Shown here in pieces: positions 33,986 to 36,312 of a stretch of DNA of 64,000 nt (positions are counted from its first letter, which is position 1; the number at the start of each line of letters is the position of its first letter). The DNA comes from Microcoleus sp. FACHB-831 (lineage in GTDB: Bacteria; Cyanobacteriota; Cyanobacteriia; Cyanobacteriales; FACHB-T130): assembly GCF_014695585.1 (NCBI RefSeq), contig NZ_JACJON010000057.1, forward strand, positions 1-64,000, given 5' to 3'. A model generated the notes under the pieces. The model was given only the letters and a program-made list of their open reading frames with translations. It was not told the DNA's origin and searched no databases. Position numbers and translations under genes: made by a program.

Positions 33986-34870
33986 TCACTTAGGTGGTGA
34001 AGTTATCCAAAAGTAATCTGCGATCGCTTTATCTGTAGACGCGATATCTTCTTCTGAGGGATTTAGTAAAATTGAACTCTGCACCGCTTTCTTACCAAGG
34101 CGTCGTTCTACGCGGCTGGGTATTCCGTAGCCGTAGATAATATGAGCTTGTCCAGCTAACACGACTACTTGATAATCTGGGTTGGCTTTGACAAACTTGG
34201 CGATCGCTTCTGCCATTGTTTCATCCCACAACACCTGCGCTGTGAAAAATCGCTCGAAGCTGGCGCTAGATCCGTGTCCTGCTTGTCTATGTTGTTGAAA
34301 AGCCCCTAACACCATTTGGCGATATTCAGCATTATCTGTACGAATTTCTGAGGCTGGTGGAATATAGCGTTGCTCTTCTGGAGTAAGGCTTTCCAATCCT
34401 CTGCGAGCAACTTTGCGGGTTATTTCAGCGGGAGTATTTAAGGCTAAAACTGGCAATTTATTTAATGCGGCAAAGCGCAGGATGGGGGCGTAATTTTCCC
34501 AAGGAAATACCCACCGTTGCTCATATTCGCTTTGTTCGATTAACTGCGTTTCTGTTATTTTGCCAGCAATATACCGATCGAGTACGTCCTGATAGGGACG
34601 TTGAAACATTTCCATAGCGATCGCTACTTTCTTATTTTTCGCTACCAGTTTTTGGATAATCTCCAGTTGAGCTTTATGATCTTCAGGGTTATCGTGAGTT
34701 TCGCCTAAGTAGATGACGTTTGTCTGGTAGAGCTTTTGCAAAACTTCTTGAAGATTGTAGTTTTGCTGCGATCGCGGACTTGATATATTTTGAGCATGGG
34801 AAGGCAAGGTACAGAATAAGATTATCCCCAGCGACCAAGCCCAGATTTTGGTGATTTGGTATATTTTCAT
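33986..34870 (-). CDS. ChaN-like (DUF399) exported protein
   Basis: A 294-residue protein with a signal peptide (about 1-27, ending LPSHAQ). VIYLGETHDNPEDH and KVAIAMEMFQRPYQDVLDRY at the start and VVLAGQAHIIYGYGIPSR near the end are the ChaN-type motifs; ChaN proteins bind haem and are linked to iron acquisition or stress. The conserved GETH and GxxH histidines are present. It is not a clear lipoprotein, as there is no lipobox cysteine. It has its own promoter region next to the long RNA-bearing intergenic stretch. Confidence 0.85.
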   Translation of the reverse strand: MKIYQITKIWAWSLGIILFCTLPSHAQNISSPRSQQNYNLQEVLQKLYQTNVIYLGETHDNPEDHKAQLEIIQKLVAKNKKVAIAMEMFQRPYQDVLDRYIAGKITETQLIEQSEYEQRWVFPWENYAPILRFAALNKLPVLALNTPAEITRKVARRGLESLTPEEQRYIPPASEIRTDNAEYRQMVLGAFQQHRQAGHGSSASFERFFTAQVLWDETMAEAIAKFVKANPDYQVVVLAGQAHIIYGYGIPSRVERRLGKKAVQSSILLNPSEEDIASTDKAIADYFWITSPPK

Positions 34871-35000: not shown

Positions 35001-35124
35001 TGGAACATTGCTTTACATTTAACTACATTCTGCGAACAGCGCAAGACCTATTCGCTCGCGCTTTATATACATTTATTAACATCAACATCTGTTAAGTAAA
35101 AATGTGAATTTTGGTTGCATTCAC

Positions 35125-35153
35125 TTGTCGTTAAGATACAGGGTCGCTATTGT
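35125..35153 (+). promoter_or_regulatory. Promoter of RNA element A
   Basis: TTGTCG (35125-35130), a 17-base spacer and TATTGT (35148-35153). The same -35/-10 pair with the same spacing occurs in copy B although the spacer bases differ, which supports selection on the promoter. The transcript would begin near 35160. Confidence 0.6.
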
Positions 35154-35159
35154 AAAAGA

Positions 35160-35452
35160 AGGAGCAAAAAAAGCTCCCCTGACAGATGATCGCAGCGCAG
35201 TTCACATTTGAGTTAAGTTCGATATAAGAGGTAAAAACGCTGTTTAATCTAAAATCTGTCTCATCCAACAACAGCAGCACTCAACAAGAAGGCTAATATT
35301 TCCTAAGCTAACGACTAGGGAGCAATGTAACTGATATGAGCGGCGAGCAATAAATCGTTGCTTCATAATTTAAATTTCAGTGCAACTCCACGTCAATCGC
35401 CCAAATAAGGAAATCCCTAAGCGAGTCTAGTCTGGGTGCTGTTGTTGTTTTA
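35160..35452 (+). ncRNA. Putative structured non-coding RNA, copy A (about 290 nt)
   Basis: Predicted transcript from the promoter at 35125-35153 to a T-rich end. Stems seen: GGAGC/GCTCC (35161-35165 with 35173-35177); GACAGAT/ATCTGTC (35181-35187 with 35254-35260) enclosing CAGCG/CGCTG (35193-35197 with 35238-35242); and a closing stem CAACAACAGCA/TGCTGTTGTTG (35266-35276 with 35437-35447), followed by TTT. Inside, ATTTCC and TAGGGA can each pair with parts of GGAAATCCCTA (35409-35419), giving alternative folds or a pseudoknot. It does not show the hallmarks of tRNA, rRNA, tmRNA, RNase P RNA or SRP RNA. Function unknown. Confidence 0.6.
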
Positions 35453-35626
35453 AAAATTTAAACTATTAACTAATATTGCCTTTAAAAAATGGTGCCTGGT
35501 TAAGATAATAAAGCATCAAGAGGCGCGATCGCATTCCAATTGATATAAATGCTATACAAGCGGACAATATTTACTTTTTACTATAAACATCTGTTAAGTA
35601 AAAATGTGAACTTTGGTTTCATCTAC

Positions 35627-35655
35627 TTGTTGTTAACAGATAAAATGGCTATTGT
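35627..35655 (+). promoter_or_regulatory. Promoter of RNA element B
   Basis: TTGTTG (35627-35632), a 17-base spacer and TATTGT (35650-35655), placed exactly as in copy A. Transcription would begin near 35662. Confidence 0.6.
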
Positions 35656-35661
35656 AAAAGA

Positions 35662-35902
35662 AGGAGCTAAAAAGCTTCTCTGACAGATGAATCGCAGCGC
35701 AGTTGGCATATGAGTTAAGAGGTAAAGAACGCTGTTTAATCTAAAATCTGTCTCGTTAACCAACAACAGCAGCACCCAACAAGAAGGCTAATATTTCCTA
35801 AGCTAAAGACTGGGGAGCAATGCAATTCAGTGCAACTCCATGTCAATTGCCCACATGAGGAAATCCCTAAGCGAGTCTAGTTTGAGTGCTGTTGTTGTTT
35901 TA
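35662..35902 (+). ncRNA. Putative structured non-coding RNA, copy B (about 240 nt)
   Basis: Same stems as copy A: GGAGCT/AGCTTC (35663-35668 with 35673-35678), GACAGAT/ATCTGTC (35682-35688 with 35746-35752), CAGCG/CGCTG (35695-35699 with 35730-35734) and CAACAACAGCA/TGCTGTTGTTG (35761-35771 with 35887-35897). Bases in the first stem change between copies but pairing is kept (a U-A pair is gained and one pair becomes G-U), which supports a folded RNA. It lies tail-to-tail with the cupin gene, whose stop is about 50 bases further on. Confidence 0.6.
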
Positions 35903-35952
35903 AAGATTTAAATTAACTCCATACTTAAAGTGCGATCGCGATCGCCAAACTA

Positions 35953-36312
35953 TTAGTAAACAGTTTCGTCTTCCTTGCGCCACGCCGGATCGACAATACA
36001 AATAAACACTAGCGGCTCAGTTCCGCAACTATGAATAAATTGCTTAGCATTAGGGGGAATATACACAGCATCCCCAGGTTCCACTAGCTGAGTTTCGTCA
36101 TCAATATGCATCTCACCCTTACCGCTGATGATGTAGTAAACCTCAGACGTTTTTAGCGAGTGGGGGGTGGAAGTTTCGCCAACTGGGAGAATGGCGTGAG
36201 CCAAACTGTAGCGCAACTCCACCGACTGCTTATCTGGATGTAATAACTCTCTTAGTATCGTGCGATCGCCCGCAATAAACTCCTCGCACTTATTGAGCTT
36301 TTGAACCAGCAT
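35953..36312 (-). CDS. Cupin domain protein
   Basis: A 119-residue single-domain cupin. SLKTSEVYYIISGKGEMHID is the first cupin motif with its conserved Glu and Gly, and PGDAVYIPPNAKQFIHS is the second. The usual late histidine is displaced (KQFIHS), so metal binding may be altered. The start is the ATG at 36312, placed two bases after the upstream gene's TAA, so the genes are co-translated. Role in the cell unknown; small cupins often bind metals or modify small molecules. Confidence 0.82.
   Translation of the reverse strand: MLVQKLNKCEEFIAGDRTILRELLHPDKQSVELRYSLAHAILPVGETSTPHSLKTSEVYYIISGKGEMHIDDETQLVEPGDAVYIPPNAKQFIHSCGTEPLVFICIVDPAWRKEDETVY

Follow-up and report, generated by a model that had tools for sequence, protein, structure and literature searches.

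The window analysed here, a 64,000-nucleotide stretch of the Microcoleus sp. FACHB-831 genome, contains a tandem pair of structured RNA genes of ~243–295 nt each, flanked on one side by a ChaN-like gene and on the other by a cupin gene in convergent orientation. These RNAs almost certainly belong to the PmgR1 (Ncr0700) family, an assignment made from gene position in Synechocystis. Our best overall explanation, to which we assign a probability of roughly 85%, is that they are tandem PmgR1 homologues with their own box-activated promoters, whose products would accumulate in the dark and limit glycogen. The original prediction had found no described family to match; the RNA is real and unusually well conserved, but it is a member of an sRNA family that has already been described. 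The new elements are a covariation-supported fold, a promoter box dedicated to the RNA, tandem duplication that has recurred and a gap in Rfam. The features of the locus are as follows.

33986..34870, minus strand: neighbouring ChaN / haem-binding uptake (Tiki superfamily) gene (Pfam PF04187, E 1.7e-76)
35104..35119, plus strand: copy 1 upstream box GTGAATTTTGGTTGCA (consensus GTAAASTTTRGTTKCA, about -56 to -41), located from the box position in homologous copies
35125..35153, plus strand: copy 1 promoter, TTGTCG (35125-35130), 17 bases, TATTGT (35148-35153), read from the sequence; homologues keep the -10 and not the -35
35160..35454, plus strand: copy 1 RNA (almost certainly PmgR1-family), ~295 nt, beginning with the 5' hairpin GGAGC/GCTCC and reaching as far as the closing stem and U-rich end
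35181..35260, plus strand: copy 1 5' domain, P2 GACAGAT/ATCTGTC around P3 GCAGCG/CGCTGT and the conserved loop AAGAGGTAAAA (35226-35236)
35266..35447, plus strand: copy 1 3' domain, closed by P4, CAACAACAGCAGCACTCA (35266-35283) with TGGGTGCTGTTGTTG (35433-35447)
35298-35303 and 35409-35414, plus strand: copy 1 P6 in the 3' domain, ATTTCC/GGAAAT
35606..35621, plus strand: copy 2 upstream box GTGAACTTTGGTTTCA, identical to the consensus
35627..35655, plus strand: copy 2 promoter, TTGTTG (35627-35632), 17 bases, TATTGT (35650-35655), read from the sequence
35662..35904, plus strand: copy 2 RNA (almost certainly PmgR1-family), ~243 nt, 5' hairpin GGAGC/GCTTC, lacking the inner stem-loop extension of copy 1
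35953..36312, minus strand: neighbouring convergent small cupin gene, start approximate (Pfam PF07883, E 4e-15)

The two copies are 75% identical over ~400 aligned bases, in agreement with the tandem duplication recognized in the original prediction. A 107-base 5' block recurs 502 bases further on and is 81% identical there; for a repeated 90-base 3' block the identity is 91%. Copy 1 owes its greater length to an additional inner stem-loop and to a short stretch inserted into the 5' loop. A covariance model built without the 5' hairpin (R1) matches copy 1 at 35179-35447 (204.9 bits, E 1.8e-46, copy 1 itself being in the model) and copy 2 at 35680-35897 (199.1 bits, E 4.4e-45). The long closing stem CAACAACAGCA...TGCTGTTGTTG is found in both copies, as anticipated, and the starts predicted near 35160 and 35662 agree with the 5' boundary seen across the phylum.

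Homologues of the RNA are widespread. A BLAST search with copy 2 identifies them in 34 of 60 relatives, often with multiple, tandemly placed copies in a genome. Carriers known by name include Nostoc (Nostoc plasmids among them), Microcoleus, Tychonema, Komarekiella, Spirulina subsalsa, Trichocoleus and Aphanothece. R1 gives full-length matches in 133 of the 291 genomes of the class, which take in most members of the window's order among the matches listed; within the Nostocaceae-like family it detects the RNA in 188 of 218 genomes, representing 53 of the 56 genera. A second model, R2, describes the 5' domain only; among the matches listed from its scan of 386 genomes of the phylum, made with strict filters that lose some divergent members, none lies outside the class. 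The many small genomes without a match suggest that the RNA is absent from picocyanobacteria. Carrying genomes have between one and eight copies, usually one or two. The count of eight comes from a contaminated assembly (G422). Some genomes carry 5–8 divergent copies (seven in G028, G213 and G219, six in G367), hinting at functional diversification.

No Rfam family accounts for the RNA. None of 4227 families exceeds its gathering threshold anywhere in the window, in line with the expectation that the pair is unlike tRNA, tmRNA, RNase P RNA or SRP RNA, and a permissive scan (E<=10) of 1.2 kb returns chance matches only. Neither phage sequences nor a text search with a signature sequence yields a match. 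The family is widespread in cyanobacteria, yet without an Rfam entry. 6S RNA (RF00013) is likewise an abundant structured cyanobacterial ncRNA, but the window RNA does not match RF00013, and 6S identity was rejected because the canonical 6S gene of this genome lies on another contig (G000 contig C41:31487-31671, 95.6 bits). The Yfr2 sRNAs are also multi-copy and widely conserved in cyanobacteria; they are, however, shorter (106 bases in Nodularia), and here again the window RNA is without an Rfam match.

The identity of the family emerges from the hox locus of Synechocystis. A homologue lies ~0.4 kb upstream of hoxE, and divergent from it, in three of the five Synechocystis-genus genomes (G040, G304 and G537), the genus of G012 having been read partly from the hox locus itself. 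HoxE was called by a family scan at one locus (L172; NCBIfam NF005747, E 2e-86), and the other hoxE loci (L173, and the similar sequence of L171) were read by eye. The hox operon of Synechocystis 6803 carries the number TU1714; TU1715 starts beside the hox promoter, across the same SigE peak (PMC11368403). TU1715 corresponds to Ncr0700, which in 6803 extends into ssr2227, a transposase gene, and in 6714 is free-standing (PMC5386190), and ncr0700 is pmgR1 (PMC12850537). The homologues are therefore found where TU1715/Ncr0700 starts, on the strand opposite to the hox operon, and we assign the family to PmgR1. The strand is consistent with the ncr naming of the RNA and the sll naming of hox. The shared features are the locus divergent from hoxE, a putative free-standing, non-coding transcript and wide conservation in cyanobacteria, the last seen in both the R1 and the R2 scans. 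The window differs from the 6803/6714 arrangement in that the RNA occurs as a tandem pair whose neighbours are ChaN and cupin genes instead of hox, and in the extended inner stem-loop of copy 1; a role in the window's organism would follow by homology only.

The same data could be read as a separate, undescribed structured RNA family, perhaps an RNP scaffold, with PmgR1 being another transcript at the hox locus. The lack of an Rfam match is compatible with such a family, as are a link made through gene position and not through an aligned 6803 sequence, and a size and fold that exceed those of usual base-pairing sRNAs. We nevertheless consider it improbable, since the transcript named Ncr0700 is precisely the divergent start beside the hox promoter, and apart from the homologue no conserved element was found at that place on the TU1715 strand. 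Three points weigh against the PmgR1 assignment. The Synechocystis-type sequences are the most divergent members (50–63 bits), bridged to the remainder by G012 at 107 bits; members outside Synechocystis-type genomes show no hox linkage; and an overlap length of 195 nt that has been published for Ncr0700 falls short of the full RNA described here. The nearly complete genome G277, of the Synechocystis-like genus, has no detectable copy, unlike its four relatives, consistent with either loss or strong divergence of the RNA. In Nostoc sp. PCC 7120, the sRNAs 2462444f (258 nt) and 268249f (340 nt) are similar in size to the window RNA; both are abundant, Northern-verified and conserved in heterocystous strains (PMC4734099). 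Compared by description, one or the other could be the Nostoc member of the family.

The RNA adopts a multi-helix fold that is supported by covariation. Relative to dinucleotide shuffles, copy 1 folds with a z of -5.9 and copy 2 with a z of -3.0. In the 5' part, the hairpin P1 (GAAGC/GCUUC) is followed by P2 (GGCAGAU/AUCUGUC), which surrounds P3 (ACAGC/GCUGU). With P3 goes the nearly invariant loop AAGAGGUAAAA, which is partly unpaired in ensembles and is the most likely contact site with an mRNA or a protein. The 3' part consists of the long closing helix P4, P5, P6 (AUUUCC/GGAAAU), P7 (GGAG/CUCC) and a variable apical hairpin. Among 104 model-aligned copies, 95.1% of cells are paired, compared with 33–54% when partners are slid, and two-sided changes occur in 25 of 34 consensus pairs (10.4 in shuffles) and in 184 cells (51.6 in shuffles). 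This alignment was fitted to the model and hence is biased towards structure; we therefore also give an independent, unconstrained MAFFT alignment of 28 copies, in which 17 of 44 consensus pairs have compensatory changes. Such changes, found in homologues from many genera, bear out the proposal that a structured RNA gene has been duplicated. No ORF of at least 15 codons is shared by the two window copies, as the original prediction had stated, or conserved across the RNA copies, and nearly every copy has its own box and -10, as expected for a free-standing, non-coding RNA gene.

Inner segments of the window copies can be drawn in alternative pairings, in which the original prediction saw a hint of a switch or pseudoknot. 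A cis-acting switch or riboswitch that controls a neighbouring gene would also be in keeping with the resemblance of AAGAGGUAAAA to the GAGGAAAUC strand of P6. The TCCCT stretch (GAAATCCCT) required for the TAGGGA/TCCCTA helix is, however, present in just 3 of the 104 rows; the alternative helix therefore fails and the switch idea is unsupported. P6 itself covaries, and the downstream genes vary and are often convergent. Because no conserved gene lies downstream in the sense orientation, we regard a switch as very unlikely.

Nearly every copy of the RNA is preceded by the 16-base box, a feature that the original prediction had not picked out. In 106 of the 118 homologous copies examined, it begins 54–57 bases before the 5' hairpin. 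Several of its positions do not vary at all among the 109 aligned sequences, and the box is more conserved than most of the RNA. Exact matches to the box in the genomes scanned occur only at this RNA; sites with one mismatch occur at about the frequency of a reversed control, providing no indication of a wider regulon. The box is followed in homologues by a TANNNT -10. Both window copies contain the predicted TTGT(C/T)G-17-TATTGT promoter, of which the -10 is retained among homologues, whereas the -35 hexamer is not conserved.

The box is made up of two half-sites with a 10-base period, centred near -48, and reports place activation by the OmpR-type regulator RpaB at such a position. Comparison with the RpaB site HLR1 gives a mean best score of 14.1 out of 18, against 12.8 in shuffles, indicating only a partial likeness. 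The match is imperfect, so RpaB is a suspected regulator. Activation from an RpaB-type position would lead one to expect more RNA in darkness or low light and less in high light.

That expectation parallels the behaviour of PmgR1 in Synechocystis. Ncr0700 is described in the literature as the most abundant transcript of Synechocystis 6714, with maximal levels in darkness, and in high light it falls by ~4 log2 units, opposite to PsrR1 (PMC12850537). As related in papers that cite the original work, PmgR1 of Synechocystis functions downstream of PmgA, both in the regulation of glycogen and in growth under photomixotrophic conditions. We propose that the two window genes would produce trans-acting, non-coding, stable structured RNAs homologous to PmgR1, each transcribed from its own -10 promoter and activated via the dedicated box near -48. 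The sequences establish the structure, its conservation and the promoter box, and we infer expression, regulator and targets. By homology with Synechocystis PmgR1, the RNAs may accumulate in darkness or low light, fall in high light and act downstream of PmgA, limiting glycogen accumulation and permitting growth on sugar. In the proposed fold, the 5' hairpin would be protective, the 5' domain would present the AAGAGGUAAAA loop, and the long helix clamping the 3' domain may double as a terminator.

We found no reported target of PmgR1 in the literature. A tentative and rather doubtful idea goes beyond simple base-pairing: PmgR1 would be a large RNA, near-universal in crown cyanobacteria, that works as an RNP or scaffold in dark metabolism, with an snRNA-like box, a conserved multi-helix fold and a dose tuned by recurrent tandem duplication. 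PmgR1 affects how cells store or burn sugar, and Rfam lacks a family for it. With the fold, the probable 5' end, the exposed loop and the box defined in more than 100 genomes, its mechanism becomes testable, beginning with the regulator that binds the box and the partner touched by the AAGAGGUAAAA loop.

With a support of 0.993 the window copies group as sisters, as the members of tandem pairs elsewhere usually do, indicating either recurrent tandem duplication or homogenization between copies. The second copy would represent a lineage-specific tandem duplication, and it probably raises dose, which is the simplest reading; natural tandem duplicates of this kind provide material for dose experiments. 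A mobile or selfish element, be it a MITE-like repeat or an orphan guide RNA from a transposon, would explain multiple copies per genome, tandem clusters and copies on Nostoc plasmids, but this is the least credible reading given that copies usually number one or two with old, divergent sequences, the dedicated promoter is conserved, there is no Rfam match to HEARO or other guide RNAs and no phage match, and no nuclease or transposase partner recurs.

Clustering of ORFs at ~30 loci gave no conserved protein partner for the PmgR1-family RNA, only lineage-local neighbours: cupin and ChaN genes in close relatives, and GIY-YIG-like genes on Nostoc plasmids. Because gene contexts differ among lineages, the ChaN and cupin neighbours in the window are probably irrelevant to the RNA. 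A family of 253–258 aa proteins that start with MAIIALKAWY, one member of which has no match in Pfam, is encoded 3' of the RNA and in the same direction at five loci (L050:7136-7912, L053:7763-8524, L026, L029:368-1138 and L030:1770-2540). At three Nostoc plasmid loci (L032, L033 and L034), the RNA directly follows a short GIY-YIG-like ORF, and two of these loci are near Hsp20 genes.
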